A stretch of DNA of 43,495 nucleotides from Deltaproteobacteria bacterium (GTDB lineage: Bacteria > Desulfobacterota > Dissulfuribacteria > Dissulfuribacterales > QOAL01), in NCBI GenBank assembly GCA_026986785.1, contig JALSNW010000017.1:1-43495 (forward strand), in the 5' to 3' direction. This document shows, in pieces, positions 15,255-25,044 of this stretch. The stretch's first letter is position 1; each line of letters begins with the position of its first letter. A model generated the notes under the pieces. It saw nothing but the letters and a program-made list of their open reading frames with translations, was not told the DNA's origin and did no database searches. Both the position numbers and the translations under genes were made by a program.

Positions 15255-16483
15255 AATTAGGGACAGGCAAATAATTCAAGTCCATTCCCCTATTCATCCG
15301 ATTATATATATTGGAGATAGACACGTAATTAAGGATAACAAAGCCATGCCGCGCATTCCAAGGATGCTCATTACAGGGGAGCCAACCGCATATCACGTGA
15401 TGTCAAAAACTGCCCTGGATGGATATGTTCTGGGGGATGTAGAAAAGGAATACCTCCTGGCACTTATGAAGCATATTAGCAGGGTCTATTTTGTAAATGT
15501 CCTTGGGTTTTGCATCATGGGTAACCATTTCCACCTGCTTGCCCGTATGCTTCCAGGGGATATGATCGACGATAGCGAGGTCTTAAGGCGTTATCAGATT
15601 TACTATGGACCTGATGTACAGGTAAAACTCACAAAAGAAAAGATAGGATTTTTTAGGGACAAATGGTCCAGTCTTTCTGAATATGTTAGGGAGATTAAGC
15701 AAAGGTTTTCCAGATTTTACAATAAAAGACATGGTAGAAAGGGCTTTTTCTGGGGGGAAAGATTCAAGAGTGTGATAGTGGAAGATGGACATACCCTTAT
15801 CAATTGCCTTGCTTATATAGACCTGAATCCAGTACGTGCTGGATTGTGCAAAAGGCCTGAGGACTACAGGTGGAATTCTATTGGCTATCACATGCAATCC
15901 AACAATAAAGGCGATTTTCTTTCACTGGATTTTGGTCTTCTTGACCAAGAGGGTCTGGATCAAGATGGCCGTTTAGCCAGATACATAAATTATGTATATG
16001 AAAAGGCAGGGCTGGCCTGTTCTAAAGAGACTTCTAATAAAGGGCTTGGTATCTCTAATCGTCTTCTTTGTCGAACCAGGTACTTTACAGATAGTGCAGT
16101 CATAGGCACCAAGGACTTTGTATCTACCTGTTATCAACGTTTCAGGGATTATTTTACCTGCCGCAGAGAAAAAAGACCCGTGCCCATTTCTGGCCTTTCC
16201 GGGATTTATTCTCTTAAGCGGTTGACAGAATAGTTGACATACTCAGCAAAGAGAACTGTCATATCCTGTCGTAATCACGCGATATCAGACATAAACATTC
16301 TTCTTGTCATAATGTCTAAAAATTTAGCTCTACACTTATAGATTTCTACCCCTTTTGGCGTTTGACTGGTGTCATGCCACCATAGAGTAGACCGTTTAGA
16401 GATTTCAAATATGGATATTCGGGTATTATTGCGAAGATGGCCGAATAATTTGTCTGAATTACATAATTTGCCTGTCCCCAATT
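15255..16483. mobile_element. RAYT/IS200-like element bounded by an 18-bp inverted repeat
   Basis: AATTAGGGACAGGCAAAT (15255-15272) and ATTTGCCTGTCCCCAATT (16466-16483) are reverse complements at 17 of 18 positions and bracket a single Y1-family transposase gene. Both copies are also accompanied by a nearby aattca/gaatta word. Such GGGACAGGC-type palindromic arms occur beside REP-associated tyrosine transposases. The unit lies where nucleotide-metabolism genes would often follow the dCMP deaminase, suggesting an insertion. Exact boundaries are inferred from the repeats; no target duplication is expected for this enzyme class. Confidence 0.6.
15346..16233 (+). CDS. REP-associated (IS200-like, Y1/HUH) tyrosine transposase
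   Basis: A 295-residue member of the Y1 transposase superfamily, longer than IS200/IS605 TnpA (about 140) and of the RAYT-like single-copy kind. The N terminus MPRIPRMLITGEPTAYHVMSKT, the metal-binding HUH in IMGNHFHLLARM (about residues 58-68), the catalytic-tyrosine helix VREIKQRFSRFYNKRHGRKGFFWGERFKS and AYIDLNPVRAGL are characteristic. These enzymes nick single-stranded hairpin DNA. The gene seems intact and sits within an inverted repeat. The C-terminal about 90 residues are the extension seen in this subgroup. Confidence 0.88.
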   Translation: MPRIPRMLITGEPTAYHVMSKTALDGYVLGDVEKEYLLALMKHISRVYFVNVLGFCIMGNHFHLLARMLPGDMIDDSEVLRRYQIYYGPDVQVKLTKEKIGFFRDKWSSLSEYVREIKQRFSRFYNKRHGRKGFFWGERFKSVIVEDGHTLINCLAYIDLNPVRAGLCKRPEDYRWNSIGYHMQSNNKGDFLSLDFGLLDQEGLDQDGRLARYINYVYEKAGLACSKETSNKGLGISNRLLCRTRYFTDSAVIGTKDFVSTCYQRFRDYFTCRREKRPVPISGLSGIYSLKRLTE

Positions 16484-16791
16484 CTGCTCCCAATTCTGCT
16501 ACTGTTAACAGATAAAATTGGATGTTTGATAAAAAGGGAACTTATGGGTATTATCTCATATGTATAAGATTTCAGACATAATGGTTTGGGGCATTTTAAT
16601 GTCAGCCCATCTGCTTTTGGGTACTTAATACTTGTTTTAGGTTTTAGAAAACCCCCGCCTGGCAAGAGGTGATTTTTTCAAACCCGTAGTAACAATTGAA
16701 TAGGGCAATTTTGTCTTTTTGTATCATAGTGTCGAAATTCCAGAAAATGATATCCCCATGAAGACCAGGAAGTTGTCTGGAGAGGATGTTA
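16234..16791. other. Non-coding stretch between the transposase and the lipid operon
   Basis: 558 bases with no credible ORF. It holds the right arm of the transposase inverted repeat (16466-16483), a 12-bp tandem duplication (16477-16500), and a small inverted repeat ATTCGG/CCGAAT around 16417-16446. The second half (16500-16790) should include the promoter of the following operon, but no convincing -35/-10 pair stood out. Confidence 0.5.
16477..16500. repeat. Tandem duplication of a 12-mer
   Basis: CCCAATTCTGCT occurs twice in direct succession (16477-16488 and 16489-16500). The first copy overlaps the end of the right inverted-repeat arm of the transposase element, so the duplication lies exactly at the presumed element edge. 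Confidence 0.7.
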
Positions 16792-19497
16792 ATGTCTGAA
16801 AAAAGGCTTTTCCATAAACAGAGGCGACCAAGTGTGTCGTTTATGTTAGATAGTGAGATATTTACTGGATCTATCCTCGCCTTCTGGGACAATGGGCTTG
16901 AGATCCAGCTAGATTCTTCCGTCCATGCAGAGGTTGGTATGGTGGTCTGCAATCTGACTCTGGGGGATCAGGATGGGTGTCCTGTCGTAAGTCGCTTGTG
17001 GATAGAGACTCTATGTCAAAAGGATGCAGCCTCCATAATCCAGGTGCAATGCCGAAATAGTCAAGAAAGGGCCGATCTTGCCCAGGCCTTGGAGTTTCTG
17101 CTGTCGCCCTCACAGCCAGCCAATGGGAAGGTTGACCAGAGCAGGATACCGAGGTTTTCAAAAAAGGGGCACTATACTCAAAAGGCGGTGCAAAAGAGGC
17201 TCGATTGGGCAAGAGTAGTATCGGGTTCGCGCCTTGAGTACATCGATATGTCCATTTTGCGGCCTGAATCCCTGGCCGGAAACATCGAAAATTATATAGG
17301 GGCCGTCCAGATCCCTATAGGGCTGGCAGGGCCTTTGTTGGTCAAAGGTACCTATATAGATGGCTATGTGCCTCTGCCCATAGCAACCACTGAAGGTGCA
17401 CTCGTCAGTTCTATAAGCAGGGGGGCAAAGGCCTGTAGCCTTGCAGGTGGTATACATGTCCATGTATCAAGGCAGCATATGGTGAGGGCCCCTGTCTTTT
17501 TCTGCCAAGACCTGGAGGGGGCTGTAAATCTGGAAAGATGGATTCTTGGACACCTGGAAGAGATCAGGGAAAAGGCCGAGAGTGTCTCTTCTGTTGCCAG
17601 GCTCGAACGGATTTTGCCAGTGATCCTTGGGAATGCCCTCCACTTGAGATTCTACTTCAGTACAGGGGATGCAGCTGGACAGAATATGACCTCTGCTTGT
17701 ACCTGGGTTGCCTGTGAATGGATAGCAGACAGTATAAGAGACGATCCTTTTATCGGCTATCAGTGGCACAACATAGAGGCCAATATGTCCGGGGACAAAA
17801 AGGCCAACTTCCAGAATTTTATAGAAGGTCGAGGGCTGGCAGTGGTTGCTGGCTGTTTTGTGCCAGGTAAGGTGCTCAGAAGGATCCTGCGGGTTAGCCC
17901 AGAGCAGTTTGTGAGGGTCTGGTCAGAGGCAGAATTCAGCGCCCACTACACGGGCATGATGGGATCAAACATAAATTTCGCAAACGTGATTGCAGGTATC
18001 TTTACTGCCACGGGTCAGGATATAGCCTGTGTCCACGAGTCTTCCAGTGGCATTTTCAAGGCGAGAAAAAGGGATGACGGGCTCATGTTCTCGGCAATAC
18101 TGCCTTCCATCGTGGCAGGGACAGTGGGGGGAGGGACAAAACTGCCGGTCCAGAGGGAGTGCCTGGAGCTCATGGGATGCTACGGACAAGGTAGGCTTTT
18201 CAGGTTTGCAGAGATCGTGGGTGCAGCATGTCTTGCCCTCGATATCTCCACAGGTGCAGCAATAGTGACGAACGATTTTGTCAGTGCCCATGAACGCCTG
18301 GGCAGAAATAGGCCGACAAACAGGATTTCTTGGTCTGAGATCAATGAAAAATTCTTTTCAGACCTGTTCCAACAGCCAAAAGTAGTTGTCAAGCGAGTTA
18401 AAAGGATGCCGCGGAAGAGCTGTTCTGGAATAATTTCCACTATTACCAGTAGGTCATCGGGTGTGCATGGCCTACACCGCTTTTTGGTGACCGGACAGAC
18501 ATCGGATGGAGAAAGGCGGATACCGGTATTCCTGAAGCTCAAGGCATCCAGCAGAGAGCTTGCTGAGATAGGTCTCAAGGTTGCAAAGCTCACAGGAGAA
18601 GACCGGCTGCCAGGGCTGTATGAATCCCAGTCCCACATCTTCTGCTTGGATGACAGCCACATCAGGGAGTTGAAGATATATCAAGATATCGATCCCCGCG
18701 TGCTTGCATATTGTCCCAAGATCTACGGTACAATGGCCAATCCCAGGCGGGAGATCTATGCAGTCTTGATGGAAGACCTTACAGGCAGCCGCTACTATGA
18801 CTCTATTCACCGCGGGGGAAACTGGAACAGGGAAAGTATAAAAACTGTTCTTTCAGACATGGCGGCCCTCCATGCTGTCTATTTTGACAGGTACCAGGGC
18901 CTGAAGGAGATGAATATATACAGGCTGGGCAAGGATTTTGTCTGTAGCGCATCAGAGCTTTTGAAAGAGCTTACTCAATTTAATGCCATGCGCTATCCCG
19001 AGCTTATCTCCCCTCGCATAAAAGAGATATATCAAGCCTTTCTATATGATCTTGAGGAAAATATCGATAGGATGCTCTCTTTCCCCCAGACCCTGACACA
19101 CAATGATTTCAATCCGAGAAACCTATGTCTCAGAAAGGGCAACAGGCAGCCATCCACGGTGCTGTACGACTGGGAACTTGCCTTTTTTCAAAACCCCCAA
19201 CATGATCTCCTGGAATTTCTCATCTTTGTGCTCAAAGAAGGTAGCCCCAGGGAGGAATATCTGAACTATGCAGACTTTTATTTGGGACGTCTGCAGGGCA
19301 TCCTGGGAAAGGAATTCTCCAGGAGGCATTTTTTAGATGTCCTGGATCTAAATGCAGTGTTTTTTGCCCTGGTCAGGATGAACCTCTATCTCTTGGGCCA
19401 TAACATATTGAAACTCGGATTCTTGGAGCGGGTCTACAAAAATCTTACAGCCTTCATAGAAAACAGTCGGCATGGTTCCAAACCAAAGGCTGGATGA
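16792..19497 (+). CDS. PilZ-like / HMG-CoA reductase / APH-kinase fusion protein
   Basis: 901 residues from ATG 16792 (ggagagg at 16779-16785; ATG 16786 is too close to it). Residues about 10-105 look PilZ-like (RRPSVSFMLDSEIFTGSI ... DNGLEI). Residues about 130-535 are an HMG-CoA reductase with all catalytic positions: Glu201 (TTEGALVSS), Lys336 (MSGDKKANFQNFIEGRG), Asp410 (TATGQD) and His500 (SAHERLGRNRP), plus a nucleotide-binding STGDAAGQNMTS. It resembles the class I (archaeal/eukaryotic) type, which makes mevalonate with NADPH. Residues about 560-880 are an aminoglycoside/choline-kinase-like domain with LTHNDFNPRNLCL (catalytic Asp772) and LYDWELAF (metal-binding Asp793). No signal peptide or membrane helix is seen. 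It opens a six-gene lipid operon. The kinase substrate is unknown; mevalonate, a prenyl alcohol or a small head-group alcohol are possibilities. Confidence 0.88.
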   Translation: MSEKRLFHKQRRPSVSFMLDSEIFTGSILAFWDNGLEIQLDSSVHAEVGMVVCNLTLGDQDGCPVVSRLWIETLCQKDAASIIQVQCRNSQERADLAQALEFLLSPSQPANGKVDQSRIPRFSKKGHYTQKAVQKRLDWARVVSGSRLEYIDMSILRPESLAGNIENYIGAVQIPIGLAGPLLVKGTYIDGYVPLPIATTEGALVSSISRGAKACSLAGGIHVHVSRQHMVRAPVFFCQDLEGAVNLERWILGHLEEIREKAESVSSVARLERILPVILGNALHLRFYFSTGDAAGQNMTSACTWVACEWIADSIRDDPFIGYQWHNIEANMSGDKKANFQNFIEGRGLAVVAGCFVPGKVLRRILRVSPEQFVRVWSEAEFSAHYTGMMGSNINFANVIAGIFTATGQDIACVHESSSGIFKARKRDDGLMFSAILPSIVAGTVGGGTKLPVQRECLELMGCYGQGRLFRFAEIVGAACLALDISTGAAIVTNDFVSAHERLGRNRPTNRISWSEINEKFFSDLFQQPKVVVKRVKRMPRKSCSGIISTITSRSSGVHGLHRFLVTGQTSDGERRIPVFLKLKASSRELAEIGLKVAKLTGEDRLPGLYESQSHIFCLDDSHIRELKIYQDIDPRVLAYCPKIYGTMANPRREIYAVLMEDLTGSRYYDSIHRGGNWNRESIKTVLSDMAALHAVYFDRYQGLKEMNIYRLGKDFVCSASELLKELTQFNAMRYPELISPRIKEIYQAFLYDLEENIDRMLSFPQTLTHNDFNPRNLCLRKGNRQPSTVLYDWELAFFQNPQHDLLEFLIFVLKEGSPREEYLNYADFYLGRLQGILGKEFSRRHFLDVLDLNAVFFALVRMNLYLLGHNILKLGFLERVYKNLTAFIENSRHGSKPKAG

Positions 19498-22047
19498 GTG
19501 ATAGTTGTGACTTCATCTATACCTGCCATAGTAGCACTTTCATCGTCAATGAGCTTGCCACTTGAGCAGGTTGGGGCCAAGGCCTCAAGGCTTGCCGAGA
19601 TGATGAACATGGGATTTCCCGTACCTGATGGTTGGGTAGTGACTGAAAAGGCCTTCAGGGATTTTTGCATCCACAACCATATATCGTGGGAGGATGTGCA
19701 TCTTCTACCGGAGACCATTATGGAGGGTTCGTTTCCTGCCGGCCTTGAAAAGGAGATCCGGCAGCGGCTGAGAGGTCCAGACAGGAGAAGAGGGCTCTTT
19801 GCTGTCAGGTCGTCTTCTTGTGCAGAAGATGGGCTTGATTTCTCTATGGCAGGCCAGTTTGAGACAATTCTGGATGTGACAGTACAGGGTATAAGCCATG
19901 CGGTCAAGAGGTGCTGGGCCAGCAGGTATGGTCAGGCTGTGAGCGCCTATATGAAGAAGAGGATGTCCAGGCAGGTCCCTTCCATGGGGGTGATCATACA
20001 GGAACAGATAAATCCTGTCTTTTCTGGTGTACTCTTCACAATGAATCCCCTCAACAGGTCTACGGACCAACTCGTTGTGGAGTGGGTTGAGGGCTTAGGA
20101 GAGAAGTTGGTATCAGGTCAGGTGGTCCCTGGGCGCATCTATCTGGATCGAGGTTCTGGTATCACTGGCCAGAGTGTGCCCCAAGGGCTTAAGGGCCATC
20201 TGATCTTACTCAGGCGTTTTGCCTTGGAGGCAGAGAGGATCTTTTCTCAGCCTGTGGACATGGAATGGTGTTGTGATGAGAAGAGACTCTATGTTCTTCA
20301 GGCAAGGCCCATTACAGGCATATCCAACCCGGACATGGTTGCATGGACCAATGCCAACATGGCTGAGAACTTCCCCATGGTCCTTGCTCCTCTGGCCTGG
20401 TCGGCAGTGGACTATTTTTATACCTGTTACATGGAGTGTGCGCTGAAGTTTTTTGGCTGGGCAGACAGGCTTTCTGATATCCAGGACATCCTCACCAGCC
20501 TCAACGGTGTCCACTGTGGAAGGATATATTACAATTTGAATAGTTGGTACCAAGTCATGTACCTGTTTCCCATGGGGAAGTGGCTGGCAAGATTTCTGGA
20601 TACCTATATCGGCCAGAAGACAACCATATCGATTAGCCCTGCCAAAGAGGCCACGAAGAGGGCCAGTCCCTTGGCAAGGGGCATGGACATGCTTCTTTTC
20701 TGGCCTCGTCTCATCTTGGCCATCTCCATGGCAGGACGGTATATGGATGTCTTGGAAGATCATTTTCATGACAAGAGGGCAGGATGGAGGTCAAGGGATG
20801 GAGACAGGTCAGGGCTGCCAGCGGCCCTGGAGATCATGGAGGATTTGTTTGCTATAGTGAAAGAGGCATGGCAAGGGCCATTTTGTGCTGATCTAAAGGT
20901 CATGGTTATGACCGGGCTCTTGGAAGTGCTCATTGGACACTGGATCAACCAGGATACGGTGCCTGTAATGGCGAGGCTTATGCAAGGCATCGAGGTGAAA
21001 AGTACAGAGCCTACCCGCCTTATATGGCAAATGGCCAAACTCATCGAACAGGATGAAGGTCTTTTGGGCTTACTCGAGGCAAGGGACTATAATGGGCTCG
21101 AAAAGGCCCTAAACAGGCAACAGCAAGTCTTGCTTCATTCCTTCATGAAGGATTTTGGCGCCCGCTGCTACCATGATTGCATGCTCGTTCATCCCACCTT
21201 TGAGGAACGCCACGATCTGTACTGGGATCTTGTCAGGAGATATGTGGGGGCCAAGGGAGCGTCTGGCAACTGGGACAGGGACAAACGAGAAAGCTGGCGC
21301 ATATCTTTTGAAGAACACACCAAGGCCCTGCCTTGGTGGAAGAGCTTGGTGTTCAGAAAGGTCCTTTATTTAGCCAGAGATGCAACGGTGCTCAGGGAGA
21401 GGGGGAGGCTGTTTCAGAGCCTTCTTTTCGGTGAGATGAGGCGCATCAGTTTACTTCTTGGCCGGCATTTGGCGGAAAAAGGTCATCTGAGACAGGAGGA
21501 AGATGTCTTCTTTCTCCAGCTTTCGGAGATCAGAGACATGGTGGAGGGCAAATTTCAATTCCCGGAAACTGTCCCCAGGCTTGTGGACATACGAAAAGAG
21601 GCCCTGAGCCGGAATGAGGAATTGGAGCCACCGGAATTTTTTCTCACACCAAAAGGTGAGTATTATATGGCAGATGGCTATGCCCAAGATGGCAGGCCCA
21701 CAATGGGCTTGACAGGCATGGGGGTGTCAGGGGGTAAGAGGATAGGTCGGGTGAGGATAGTCCTCGATCCATCTTCTGGTCATGGGCTCAAGGATGGCGA
21801 TATCCTTGTCACCCGTACTACCGATCCTGGTTGGACACCTCTGTTTTTTATTGCAGGCGGTCTCGTGTTGGAGAAGGGAGGCATGCTCTCCCACGGGGCC
21901 ATCGTTGCCCGAGAGTTTGGCATACCAGCCATTGTGGACATGAAAGGTGCCACCCGCATCTTGAAGGATGGACAATTGGTGGAGGTGGATGGAAATGCTG
22001 GCACGGTAAAGGTGCTTGAAGGGGAACAGGCAGGCCCTCAGAAATGA
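19498..22047 (+). CDS. PEP-synthase/rifampicin-phosphotransferase-like dikinase
   Basis: 849 residues. The N-terminal ATP-binding domain (to about residue 280) has GAKASRLAEMMNMGFPVPDGW, LFAVRSSSCAEDG, SMAGQFETILDV and YVLQARPITG. The C terminus is the swivelling phosphohistidine domain, with His799 in KGGMLSHGAIVAREFGIPAIV. Between them lie about 430 residues without a family I recognise. The pyruvate/PEP barrel that follows the His domain in PpsA is absent; the order ATP-grasp, insert, His domain is that of rifampicin phosphotransferase-like enzymes, which use ATP to phosphorylate a non-pyruvate acceptor, releasing AMP and phosphate. GTG 19498 abuts the upstream stop; ATG 19549 is an alternative start. 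It overlaps the UbiA gene by ATGA. The context suggests a lipid or isoprenoid acceptor. Confidence 0.82.
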   Translation: MIVVTSSIPAIVALSSSMSLPLEQVGAKASRLAEMMNMGFPVPDGWVVTEKAFRDFCIHNHISWEDVHLLPETIMEGSFPAGLEKEIRQRLRGPDRRRGLFAVRSSSCAEDGLDFSMAGQFETILDVTVQGISHAVKRCWASRYGQAVSAYMKKRMSRQVPSMGVIIQEQINPVFSGVLFTMNPLNRSTDQLVVEWVEGLGEKLVSGQVVPGRIYLDRGSGITGQSVPQGLKGHLILLRRFALEAERIFSQPVDMEWCCDEKRLYVLQARPITGISNPDMVAWTNANMAENFPMVLAPLAWSAVDYFYTCYMECALKFFGWADRLSDIQDILTSLNGVHCGRIYYNLNSWYQVMYLFPMGKWLARFLDTYIGQKTTISISPAKEATKRASPLARGMDMLLFWPRLILAISMAGRYMDVLEDHFHDKRAGWRSRDGDRSGLPAALEIMEDLFAIVKEAWQGPFCADLKVMVMTGLLEVLIGHWINQDTVPVMARLMQGIEVKSTEPTRLIWQMAKLIEQDEGLLGLLEARDYNGLEKALNRQQQVLLHSFMKDFGARCYHDCMLVHPTFEERHDLYWDLVRRYVGAKGASGNWDRDKRESWRISFEEHTKALPWWKSLVFRKVLYLARDATVLRERGRLFQSLLFGEMRRISLLLGRHLAEKGHLRQEEDVFFLQLSEIRDMVEGKFQFPETVPRLVDIRKEALSRNEELEPPEFFLTPKGEYYMADGYAQDGRPTMGLTGMGVSGGKRIGRVRIVLDPSSGHGLKDGDILVTRTTDPGWTPLFFIAGGLVLEKGGMLSHGAIVAREFGIPAIVDMKGATRILKDGQLVEVDGNAGTVKVLEGEQAGPQK

Positions 22048-22901
22048 TGCATGCCCTTAAGTCCTTTATAGAAGACAGATTTCCCCTCAAGGTCACGCTA
22101 CCTCTGTCCTTCGTACTTTTTGGTGCCCCTGCAAGCCTTTCGATGCCCAATCTCTTTTCGGCTGTCTGTGGATTTACCACCATTTTTTTGGCCCTGCTCG
22201 TACTTCGAATATGGGATGACATATCGGATCTGGAGATAGATGCAATAAAGAGCCCAGGAAGGGGCCTTGTCTCTGGAAGGATAGACGGAGAGAGGTTGGT
22301 ATGGGCATCTGGTTTTTTCTTGTTGATAGTCCTTTGCCTGAACAGCCTGGAGCCAGCCTTTCCTCTTGTGTGCCTTGTGATGGCCTATTATCTTATCTTC
22401 TTCCGCCATCTCAAAAAAAAGGTGCCTTTTGTCCTTCAACCCCTTTTGCTCAATGTGATCTTTTTTGTGATACCCCTTTATGCTGGTCTTCTTGGGGGGC
22501 ACCTGGATGGGAAGTTTTGGGCCCTCTCCCTATTCGTCTGGATAGGTGTGGTGGCCCACGACTATGCCCACAGTGTCCATGGCCCAGAGGAGGGGATGGA
22601 GGGTGTGCCGAGTTTCTCAGGTAGCATAGGTGCCAGGGGATCGGCCATTCTTGCAGGCACTTTTTTTCTATTATCGGCCTGTTTTGGCCTTGTTGTATGG
22701 ATGCTGGGAACAGGGGATGGGCTTTTTGTCACGGCCCTTTCATGTATGTCCCTTTTGATCTTGTACAGGTGCGGTCGGCTTCTTTTGCATCCCAGTTCGA
22801 GAGAGGCGAGGCCCTTTTATGTATCTGGTTTCTTGTTTTTCCTCATCCCCCTTATCGCCCTTGGGGCAGAGCGCCTTCTTTGTATGGTAGGAGTATGGTA
22901 A
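22044..22901 (+). CDS. UbiA-superfamily membrane prenyltransferase
   Basis: A 285-residue integral membrane protein with about eight or nine helices. The first Asp-rich motif is LRIWDDISDLEIDAIKSPGRGLVSGRI (Asp58, 59, 62, 66), which matches the UbiA pattern of Mg-diphosphate binding followed by P-x-R and SG-x-I. The second motif is modified (VVAHDYAHSVHGPEE). UbiA enzymes transfer a prenyl chain from its diphosphate to an acceptor: quinone head groups, haem, chlorophyll, or, in archaea, geranylgeranylglyceryl phosphate (DGGGP synthase). Overlap with both neighbours (ATGA upstream, TAATG downstream), and a PssA-type enzyme, a decarboxylase and a CarS homologue just downstream, make the glycerolipid role the most attractive inference. 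Sequence alone cannot exclude a quinone or other acceptor. Confidence 0.82.
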   Translation: MMHALKSFIEDRFPLKVTLPLSFVLFGAPASLSMPNLFSAVCGFTTIFLALLVLRIWDDISDLEIDAIKSPGRGLVSGRIDGERLVWASGFFLLIVLCLNSLEPAFPLVCLVMAYYLIFFRHLKKKVPFVLQPLLLNVIFFVIPLYAGLLGGHLDGKFWALSLFVWIGVVAHDYAHSVHGPEEGMEGVPSFSGSIGARGSAILAGTFFLLSACFGLVVWMLGTGDGLFVTALSCMSLLILYRCGRLLLHPSSREARPFYVSGFLFFLIPLIALGAERLLCMVGVW

Positions 22902-23536
22902 TGGGAATAAGACAGCATTTTATAGGCATATATAACCCGCCTTTTTTCGTTACCCTGTGTGGCCTGATGAGCGGCCTCTGGGCCTGTATATTCTCCTATG
23001 CCAGCCTTGTAGAGCTTGCGATCGTCTGTTTCATCATGGCAGGATTGTGCGACCTTTTTGACGGCGTAGTGGCGAGAAGGCTCAAGAGGACGAAGGATGA
23101 AAAGCTCTTTGGCCTTCACCTCGATTCAGTCGTGGATGCCATCAGTTTTGGTCTTGTGCCCGTGATACTTCTCCTCCATACTGGTTTTACATCCATCGTG
23201 GACTATTTCCTGTTTTCCATTTATTGTTTCAGCGCCACAACCCGTTTGGCATATTTCAATCTCCTTCAAGCCAGGTCCAAGGCCATGCCAGGTTATTATA
23301 CAGGACTTCCTGTCACCTACTCTGCCCTTGTGCTTCCACTGGCCTTTACTGTCGGGGTTTTTCTAAGCGATGAAATGGCAGGCCTGCTTATAAGGGCCAG
23401 TCTGTTTCTCCTCGCCTTTTTCTACGTGCTTGATGTCAAGGTGAAAAAACCAGGAGGGATCTTTTATGTGATCTTTCCGGTCATAGGGGCATCTTTGATC
23501 CTTTTCTGGCTCATAAGGTGGTCTTTCAGGACATGA
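22901..23536 (+). CDS. CDP-alcohol phosphatidyltransferase, phosphatidyl/archaetidylserine synthase type
   Basis: A 211-residue membrane enzyme that would exchange CMP on a CDP-activated lipid for an alcohol such as serine. The CDP-alcohol motif is complete: Asp51, Asp54, Gly55, Ala58, Arg59, then Gly71, Asp75 and Asp79 (DLFDGVVARR ... FGLHLDSVVDAISFG). The spacing between AR and G is 11 rather than the classic 8, as I recall from one PssA-like subfamily. The SFGLVPV sequence after the last Asp points to a serine-transferring PssA. The frame is open from 22697 inside the UbiA gene, but taggag (22888-22893) and ATG 22901, overlapping the UbiA stop by one base, fix the start. A decarboxylase gene follows after 15 bases. 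Confidence 0.88.
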   Translation: MGIRQHFIGIYNPPFFVTLCGLMSGLWACIFSYASLVELAIVCFIMAGLCDLFDGVVARRLKRTKDEKLFGLHLDSVVDAISFGLVPVILLLHTGFTSIVDYFLFSIYCFSATTRLAYFNLLQARSKAMPGYYTGLPVTYSALVLPLAFTVGVFLSDEMAGLLIRASLFLLAFFYVLDVKVKKPGGIFYVIFPVIGASLILFWLIRWSFRT

Positions 23537-23551
23537 GTAGGGGCTGATTGT

Positions 23552-24454
23552 ATGGGGGCACGCAACAGGGTTTTTCTATACAACAGGGAAACAGGCCTTA
23601 TAGAACAGGAACAGATCTATGAGAAGTGGTTCATGGACTGGTTCTATGGTACAGGGCCTGGGCGTTTGATCACCAGGTTTTTGCTGAGCAAAAAGGGTTT
23701 TTCAAGAGGTTATGCCTGGTTCAAGAAAAGACCTGGGAGCAAGGGCCAAATCATCCCTTTTGTAGAAAAATACAATATAGATATCAGTGAATTGGAAGAG
23801 CCTCTCGAACGATTCAGAGACTTCAATCACTTCTTCACGCGAAGATTGAAGCCAGGGGCAAGGCCCATAGAAATGTCCCATGACATTTTGATATCACCAG
23901 CAGATGGGAGGATGATGACGTTGTATATCGATACAGAGCTCATCGTGCCCATCAAGGGTTTGAGTTTTACCCTGGGTGATCTCCTTGGTGGCGTTCACAA
24001 AGTGGATGAATGGATGGGTGGGACATGTGTCAAGGTACGTCTTGCCCCATTTGACTATCACAGGTTTTGTTATATCGACAATGGTTATCACGGTCCAGTA
24101 GTGCATGTAGATGGGCATCTTCACTCGATCAGTCCCCTTGCTTTACAGCACAGGCTGAAGATCCTGCATGGCAACCTCAGGGACATTGTTGTACTTGAGA
24201 CAGAGAATTTTGGCAAGGTTGCCCATATTGACATAGGGGCTATTACAGTTGGCAGGATTCATCAGCACTATTGTCAGGGGACCAATTTCCGAAAGGGGCA
24301 GGAAAAGGGCTATTTTGAATTCGGTGGATCTACCATCGTCCTTCTCTTTGGCCCTGGCAGAATCAGGATAGATGAAGACATCCTCCATTATTCGAGAAAA
24401 GGGATAGAGAGCTTGGTGCGTTATGGTGGGCCTGTGGGCAGGAGGATCAAGTAG
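23552..24454 (+). CDS. psd: Phosphatidylserine (or archaetidylserine) decarboxylase
   Basis: A 300-residue pyruvoyl-dependent decarboxylase converting the serine head group to ethanolamine. Visible features are FNHFFTRRLKPGARPI, SPADGR (the Asp of the triad), VRLAPFDYHRFCYIDNG (His) and, near the C terminus, the self-cleavage motif GGST with Ser260 in FEFGGSTIVLLF. Cleavage there would give a short alpha subunit carrying the pyruvoyl group. The first Gly replaces the Leu of the E. coli LGST; GGST forms occur in other PSD groups. There is no N-terminal membrane anchor. Placed after a PssA-like enzyme and two bases before the CarS homologue, it is part of the same head-group pathway. Whether the backbone is diacyl or isoprenoid cannot be told from this protein. 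Confidence 0.9.
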   Translation: MGARNRVFLYNRETGLIEQEQIYEKWFMDWFYGTGPGRLITRFLLSKKGFSRGYAWFKKRPGSKGQIIPFVEKYNIDISELEEPLERFRDFNHFFTRRLKPGARPIEMSHDILISPADGRMMTLYIDTELIVPIKGLSFTLGDLLGGVHKVDEWMGGTCVKVRLAPFDYHRFCYIDNGYHGPVVHVDGHLHSISPLALQHRLKILHGNLRDIVVLETENFGKVAHIDIGAITVGRIHQHYCQGTNFRKGQEKGYFEFGGSTIVLLFGPGRIRIDEDILHYSRKGIESLVRYGGPVGRRIK

Positions 24455-24456
24455 CC

Positions 24457-25044
24457 ATGAGTTATTGGTTCAGGATATGTTATACGCTACTGCCAGTGAT
24501 CCTGGCAGGGGTATGCAACATGATTTTCGTCAAACTCCCTGTGCTCGATTGCCTGAAAAAGCCAATGGACAACGGCATGGTGTACAGGGACGGGAAGAGG
24601 CTCTTTGGCGCAAACAAGACATGGAAGGGATTTTTGGGCATGGTCTTTTTCACAGGGTTATGGATGTGGTGTTTGGGGAGCCTTGATGCCCTTTCCCCCT
24701 GGGTACGGGGCCTGTCTCTGATTTGCTACGAGGAGATTCCTCCAGCATGGCAGTGGTTCTATGGTGCTTTGTGGGGCCTTGGTTATGTGGTTTTTGAGCT
24801 GCCAAACAGCTATGTCAAAAGAAGAATCGGCATCCCTCCAGGGCAAAATGTCAAAGGGCTGAAGGGTTACATTTTCATGTTTGTTGACCAGGCGGATTCT
24901 GTCCTTGGCTGCATGGTGTTCATGCTCTTTTTCTACGTGCCTACAGTGTCCGAGGCCTTGGCCATTTTTGTGGCAGGTGTTGTCATACACTATGTGATAA
25001 ACATCATGCTCTTTGTGGTAGGGTTAAAGAAACAGCCTGCTTGA
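24457..25044 (+). CDS. carS: CDP-archaeol synthase homologue (CarS/DUF46)
   Basis: A 195-residue membrane protein with about five helices. CarS condenses CTP with an unsaturated archaetidic acid to give CDP-archaeol, the archaeal counterpart of CdsA. The diagnostic blocks are present in order: PMDNGMVYRDGKRLFGANKTWKGF (residues 36-59), ELPNSYVKRRIGIPPGQ (114-130) and VDQADSVLG (143-151). The NKTWKGF and DQxD forms fit CarS better than CdsA. Length and topology match the archaeal enzyme (about 165-180). It begins two bases after the decarboxylase gene and closes the operon, meeting the convergent fdhD gene after 19 bases. Bacterial homologues annotated as CDP-archaeol synthase exist, and their natural substrate is largely untested. 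Confidence 0.85.
   Translation: MSYWFRICYTLLPVILAGVCNMIFVKLPVLDCLKKPMDNGMVYRDGKRLFGANKTWKGFLGMVFFTGLWMWCLGSLDALSPWVRGLSLICYEEIPPAWQWFYGALWGLGYVVFELPNSYVKRRIGIPPGQNVKGLKGYIFMFVDQADSVLGCMVFMLFFYVPTVSEALAIFVAGVVIHYVINIMLFVVGLKKQPA

Follow-up and report, generated by a model that had tools for sequence, protein, structure and literature searches.

What does a bacterium make with an operon that resembles the phospholipid pathway of archaea? The question is raised by contig JALSNW010000017.1 of a Deltaproteobacteria bacterium (Desulfobacterota, Dissulfuribacterales; assembly GCA_026986785.1), of which positions 1 to 43,495, the whole stretch analysed and referred to here as the window, hold six plus-strand genes in one operon at 16786-25044. 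An earlier note, made from the DNA alone, had described these genes as overlapping or separated by at most 15 bases and as encoding a fused 3-hydroxy-3-methylglutaryl-coenzyme A (HMG-CoA) reductase (HMGR), a dikinase, a UbiA prenyltransferase, a PssA-type transferase, a serine-head-group decarboxylase and a CarS homologue; coordinates and profile searches agreed with it on every gene. The note read the operon as a route to an isoprenoid, archaeol-like phosphoethanolamine lipid beside the ordinary phospholipid pathway. We retain the second phosphoethanolamine-lipid pathway with archaeal-type UbiA and CarS, and not the isoprenoid chains: in our estimation there is an even chance that the operon is a self-contained second route to an ethanolamine phospholipid with fatty alcohols as its chains, which are probably ether-bonded to glycerol phosphate.

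The reductase and the nature of the lipid chains

The first gene (16786..19497, plus strand like all the others; alternative ATG at 16792) encodes a three-domain protein of 903 amino acids (aa), of which the HMGR-like domain (residues 134-507, 17185..18306) matched PF00368 with an E-value of 1.8e-104. The reductases of four operon members were aligned to HMGR of Methanothermococcus (6hr7) and Arabidopsis (8ecg), with positions given in human HMGR numbering. The catalytic residues Glu559, Lys691, Asp767 and His866 are conserved in all four members, as are R590, D690, K692 and N755, while four other positions are substituted throughout: S684 by Glu, the pocket Lys K735 by Ala, H752 by Asn and L862 by Phe. 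A closely similar pattern marks FcrA, an HMGR homologue that reduces acyl-CoA of C14 and longer instead of HMG-CoA and has an acidic residue for Ser684, a small residue for the pocket Lys and a bulky residue for Leu862 (Grossi et al. 2025, PMC11948995). The pocket Lys, Lys795 in that paper, was set to alignment column K735 by way of Gly411 of N. pharaonis, which lies between Lys367 and Asp441. FcrA was discovered via wax-ester synthesis, and some FcrA have been proposed to supply ether-lipid synthesis (PMC11948995). Judged by its residues and gene context, the HMGR-like domain of the operon is very likely a fatty acyl-CoA reductase, and its FcrA signature points to alkyl, not isoprenoid, chains. 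In a small tree of 20 rows, with no characterised FcrA among them, the operon members stood apart from both canonical HMGR. The reductases at three loci without tblastn matches (L016-L018) were class II HMGR, not FcrA. Two further loci (L030 and L031, genomes G046 and G120) encode proteins of ~930 aa in which, judged by eye, a class II HMGR domain is followed by C-terminal repeats like those of the squalene-cyclase type.

The genome gave no sign of an isoprenoid role for this reductase. HMG-CoA synthase (PF01154) was found in none of 11 genomes, three complete operon carriers among them, and GHMP kinases numbered one per genome; in the window's own genome (99% complete) this one is IspE of the methylerythritol phosphate (MEP) pathway, so no mevalonate kinase was detected. 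With no HMG-CoA synthase and IspE as the sole GHMP kinase, the HMGR-like protein cannot feed isoprenoids; the supply function that the earlier note had given it was therefore rejected, and the FcrA-type residues likewise speak against it. Dxr, also of the MEP pathway, lies at C40 of the same genome, adjoining CdsA and an undecaprenyl-diphosphate-synthase-like gene. The note had also reported glycerol-1-phosphate (G1P) dehydrogenase and geranylgeranylglyceryl phosphate (GGGP) synthase as missing from the window, and both proved to be missing genome-wide. GGGP synthase (PF01884) is absent from the own genome and had no match over cut-off in 60 genomes, with positive controls detected; own-genome matches over cut-off to PF13685, the G1P dehydrogenase family, were AroB and an iron-containing alcohol dehydrogenase, and a third, below cut-off, falls within a gene that, judged by eye from its start, looks like PurD. 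Geranylgeranyl reductase, another enzyme for which the note had suggested a genome search, was not found in the own genome either. Since GGGP synthase, G1P dehydrogenase and the mevalonate pathway are missing, archaeol is not makeable by the known route.

The two domains that flank the reductase had been left unnamed by the earlier note, which had correctly noticed a fusion. For the N-terminal domain (residues 1-109, 16786..17112) a Pfam search gave nothing; its AlphaFold2 model (mean predicted local distance difference test score, pLDDT, 84) matched the PilZ protein VCA0042 in a structure search (Foldseek E-value 1e-4; VIA-align Z 13.2, root-mean-square deviation 2.1, 100 residues), and by this model the domain is a PilZ fold. 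Binding of cyclic di-GMP is doubtful, because the usual motifs RxxxR and [DN]xSxxG were not seen in the aligned N-termini. The C-terminal domain (residues ~527-892, 18364..19461) is EcKL/APH-like, with E-values of 1.3e-12 to 2e-13 for EcKL (PF02958) and 2.1e-9 to 5e-10 for APH (PF01636), and the catalytic motifs HNDxxxxN and DWE are invariant in an alignment of four homologues. A PDB sequence search with this domain was without match, and its AlphaFold model (mean pLDDT 55) was too poor for a fold search. A fusion of FcrA with an APH-type kinase is also present in Streptomyces sp. NBC_01435 (L131), whose neighbourhood gave no profile match to the remaining five proteins of the operon. As this fusion recurs outside any UbiA context seen, the fused kinase, our proposed alcohol kinase, probably acts on the product of the reductase, the fatty alcohol itself.

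An accessory set beside the ordinary phospholipid pathway

The second gene (19498..22047) encodes a dikinase of 849 aa like phosphoenolpyruvate (PEP) synthase and rifampin phosphotransferase, to which the earlier note, in recognising it, had assigned no role, nor had it assigned one to the fused kinase. The protein is of the PPDK_N/PEP-utilizer kind; its best PDB relatives are rifampin phosphotransferases, 5hv2 at the top, and its phosphoryl-carrier His is in place in GGMLSHGAIVAREFG. A 4-base overlap joins its gene to that of the UbiA-superfamily transferase (22044..22901), the proposed ether-forming enzyme, which resembles digeranylgeranylglyceryl phosphate (DGGGP) synthase: PF01040 was matched above cut-off and the sole PDB match of the UbiA profile was DGGGP synthase 6m31. 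The first Asp-rich motif, DDxxDxxxD, is kept in this protein, and the second is reduced to HDYxHS in all four operon members, so that the two motifs were not found together. No operon UbiA was found in a search against plasmids.

The remaining three genes encode enzymes of head-group synthesis. The PssA-type transferase, which joins serine to a cytidine diphosphate (CDP)-alcohol, is encoded at 22895..23536; its true start is ATG 22895 or 22901, the longest-open-reading-frame start at 22697 being wrong, and archaetidylserine synthase models are among its best model matches. After a gap of 15 bases follows a phosphatidylserine decarboxylase (Psd) of the PRK00723 type (23552..24454), in which GGST, the source of the pyruvoyl group, is invariant, and after a further 2 bases a CarS-like CTP-dependent cytidylyltransferase of the CDP-archaeol synthase family (24457..25044), whose sole PDB match is CDP-archaeol synthase 5guf. 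The earlier note had stated that grouping of UbiA and CarS with quinone-type UbiA and CdsA would speak against its reading; the two do not group in that way, their nearest relatives being 6m31 and 5guf, as best matches and not as a resolved phylogeny. NCBIfam matches of the operon proteins lie nearly all under the curated cut-offs, that of Psd to its best model PRK00723 included, and the proteins are thus divergent members of their families.

The identical six-gene order was found on three further contigs, JALWNK010000019.1 (L005, genome G011), WGDC01000094.1 (L006, G009) and JABDIN010000056.1 (L007, Desulfobacteraceae), with proteins 35-69% identical and unrelated flanking genes. An order kept amid unrelated flanks indicates that the operon is not a chance arrangement. 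Within the window's family the reductase gene was present in 5 of 19 genomes (as contig-end fragments in G001 and G016) and was not found in sister genomes that are 97-99% complete (e.g. G002, G006, G013 and G014); across the phylum, a full-length fusion was present in 4 of 395 genomes (the window's own, G009, G011 and G379). Given this occurrence in few genomes of family and phylum, the operon is an accessory cassette with a patchy distribution. Directly upstream of it (window 15346-16233) lies an IS200-like (Y1_Tnp) transposase gene, which may bear on that distribution. In the fusion of G379 (L116 5690-8431) the catalytic Lys691 is replaced by Arg, Asp690 is lost and His866 is replaced by Gln, the kinase motifs remaining; the opposite strand encodes, at a distance of 6 kb, a PssA of the operon subfamily.

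The window's own genome has, in addition, a canonical Psd-PssA pair (C14:20778-21829), as have nearly all relatives, and a canonical CdsA at C40. Since the ordinary enzymes CdsA, PssA and Psd have genes of their own outside the operon, and also occur in relatives without it, the PssA, Psd and CarS of the operon are an extra, dedicated second set; that they are the cell's sole ethanolamine-lipid pathway is ruled out by the second PssA and Psd and the canonical CdsA. In two genomes without a reductase gene (G004 and G008; L041, L044), the sole Psd found was of the operon type. A second CarS-like gene is present in the own genome (G000:C13:29897-30289; L038 9892-10398), beside an MsbA-like ABC transporter and a PHP-like protein, and weak PF01148 matches at apparently equivalent genes of operon-free relatives suggest that it is possibly conserved. 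A CarS relative alone is accordingly no sign of archaeal lipids.

The proposed route and its alternatives

Part of the operon recurs in a second type of cluster. In a genome of another Desulfobacterota family (G316; L121 4724-13636), an AMP (adenosine monophosphate)-ligase gene is followed by genes for FcrA, UbiA, a dikinase, a DUF3419 protein and a membrane protein, and plasmid NZ_CP121116.1 of Roseinatronobacter sp. S2 (L130, L135) carries FcrA, whose gene spans the origin of the record, then UbiA, dikinase, DUF3419, two unknown genes and an AMP-ligase. The L121 dikinase matched the operon dikinase profile with an E-value of 9.5e-115, the dikinases of both cluster types cluster apart from PigC-type enzymes in a tree of 8 sequences (100/99), and UbiA of both types has (E/D)RFPL in its N-terminal part, together with a second Asp-rich motif in degenerate form. 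The FcrA-UbiA-dikinase core is thus common to the two cluster types and the head-group part is different. DUF3419 is the BtaA family, which joins homoserine to diacylglycerol in betaine lipids, and the product predicted for the second cluster type from its genes is a betaine or homoserine lipid with an ether link. The membrane protein that follows DUF3419 has, by eye, the look of a CTP-dependent phytol or dolichol kinase, unconfirmed by Pfam; its match to CdsA was weak (E-value 0.006, probability 6%).

From the operon's gene content, we infer the following route. The FcrA-type domain would reduce long-chain acyl-CoA to fatty alcohol, and the fused kinase would convert this to alkyl phosphate; the dikinase might add a second phosphate or itself make an activated alkyl donor. 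UbiA would then transfer the alkyl chain to a hydroxyl group on glycerol phosphate or on an alkyl- or acyl-glycerol phosphate, giving alkyl-ether phosphatidic acid, from which CarS, whose archaeal counterpart works on diether substrates, would make a CDP-lipid, PssA the serine lipid and Psd the ethanolamine lipid. The order parallels the plant phytol pathway VTE5-VTE6-VTE2, which consists of an alcohol kinase, a second phosphorylation and a UbiA transferase. UbiA and CarS would then probably resemble archaeal enzymes because they handle ethers, not because the chains are isoprenoid. A wider proposal, which we make tentatively and hold to be possible rather than likely, is of an ether-bond chemistry new in kind: kinase and dikinase would supply a fatty-alcohol diphosphate from which a UbiA-superfamily enzyme makes alkyl-glycerol ethers without isoprenoid chains, in at least two cluster types, for ethanolamine and for betaine-kind homoserine lipids, in different phyla.

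Several points weigh against the alkyl-ether route. The UbiA donor is unsure, given the degenerate second Asp-rich motif. UbiA normally needs a carbocation-forming allylic diphosphate; a saturated alkyl diphosphate would have to react by displacement, for which we know of no UbiA precedent. A single UbiA gene would serve possibly two chains, the dikinase could have another substrate, its relatives including the ligases PigC and RedH, and the FcrA clade is not one strong group in the 20-row reductase tree (78/76).

Such doubts leave most room for a mixed or non-glycerol product, in which an alkyl phosphate from the FcrA alcohol and an MEP-derived prenyl chain added by UbiA share one backbone, or in which the head group is placed directly on an alkyl or prenylated phosphate with no alkyl-glycerol ether. 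Allylic prenyl diphosphates, the normal substrates of the UbiA family, are available from the MEP pathway of the own genome, and CarS, PssA and Psd require only a lipid phosphate. However, neither cluster type has a gene for prenyl diphosphate synthase, and that FcrA-UbiA-dikinase recurs beside a BtaA-like gene, whose known relatives act on diacylglycerol, suggests a glycerolipid core. We consider such a product unlikely, though a serious contender. That the fatty alcohol is destined for wax or another neutral lipid, with an ordinary phosphatidylethanolamine set merely downstream, would fit the discovery of FcrA through wax-ester synthesis (PMC11948995) but is improbable: the tight gene order is kept across separate genera with unrelated flanks, ordinary PssA, Psd and CdsA are already in the genome, and wax synthesis has no role for UbiA, CarS or a dikinase.

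The archaeol-like phospholipid fed by HMG-CoA reductase, as the earlier note had it, draws on the archaeal nearest relatives of UbiA and CarS and on the archaetidylserine synthase models among those of PssA, and also on operon carrier G011, the only genome with a true geranylgeranyl-reductase-family gene (L086 9691-10845; G011:C19), which lies ~40 kb from the operon on the same contig. It has very little chance, in our judgement, against the lack of GGGP synthase over cut-off in 60 genomes, the identity of the own Fe-ADH_2 matches, a genome with neither geranylgeranyl reductase nor mevalonate pathway and a reductase pocket of FcrA and not HMGR type. Finally, a true HMG-CoA reductase that takes HMG-CoA from another source (e.g. 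leucine breakdown) and makes mevalonate as a building block would agree with the kept catalytic residues and NADPH-site Asp and Asn, yet is extremely unlikely with the HMG-binding Ser and Lys changed to Glu and Ala in all operon members and neither HMG-CoA synthase nor mevalonate kinase found.

Comparison with known systems

If the alkyl-ether route is correct, archaeal-type UbiA and CarS have a part in ether lipids of both kinds, alkyl and isoprenoid. This would have a bearing on the lipid divide and on whether UbiA and CarS genes of a bacterial genome can be read as evidence of archaeol. Where bacteria lack the mevalonate pathway, annotation of an 'HMG-CoA reductase' as part of isoprenoid synthesis should be avoided. 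The six candidate genes share a single direction of transcription and are portable to E. coli.

The operon has a DGGGP-synthase-kind UbiA, CarS, PssA and Psd in common, by sequence, with the archaeal phospholipid pathway. The latter includes GGGP synthase, G1P dehydrogenase, geranylgeranyl reductase and the mevalonate pathway, whereas the operon's genome has none of these, and a fatty-alcohol-making reductase, a kinase and the dikinase would stand in place of the archaeal upstream enzymes. Bacteria of the Fibrobacteres-Chlorobi-Bacteroidetes (FCB) group with archaeal lipid genes also have a DGGGP-synthase-like UbiA beside the ordinary fatty-acid pathway, but they possess GGGP synthase and lack CarS (Villanueva et al. 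2020, PMC7852524), the reverse of what is found here.

FcrA and the operon reductase have in common the HMGR fold, the catalytic tetrad, Glu for S684, a small residue for the pocket Lys and a bulky one at the L862 position, as well as a genome without mevalonate pathway (PMC11948995). The operon protein differs in that a PilZ-fold N-terminus replaces the long-chain alkyl carrier domain and a kinase is fused C-terminally, in the bulky residue at L862, which is Phe and not Trp, in Asn for H752 and in its place in a phospholipid operon. Rifampin phosphotransferase and PigC/RedH have the ATP-grasp and swivelling phospho-His domains of the operon dikinase; the substrate domain differs, and their antibiotic and prodigiosin chemistry is without link to the operon.

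We found no description of this gene combination in the open-access literature, and the operon is a so far undescribed candidate way for bacteria to make ether lipids. Alkyl-glycerol ethers are known in bacteria, sulfate reducers among them, from the ElbD and Ger/PlsA routes (cited in PMC11150832, PMC11948995). Of these, ElbD is an enzyme of several domains, and Ger works by reduction of an ester already present; as far as these two sources describe them, both routes differ from the operon in every enzyme named, and neither uses UbiA, CarS or a dikinase, all three of which stand together in the operon.

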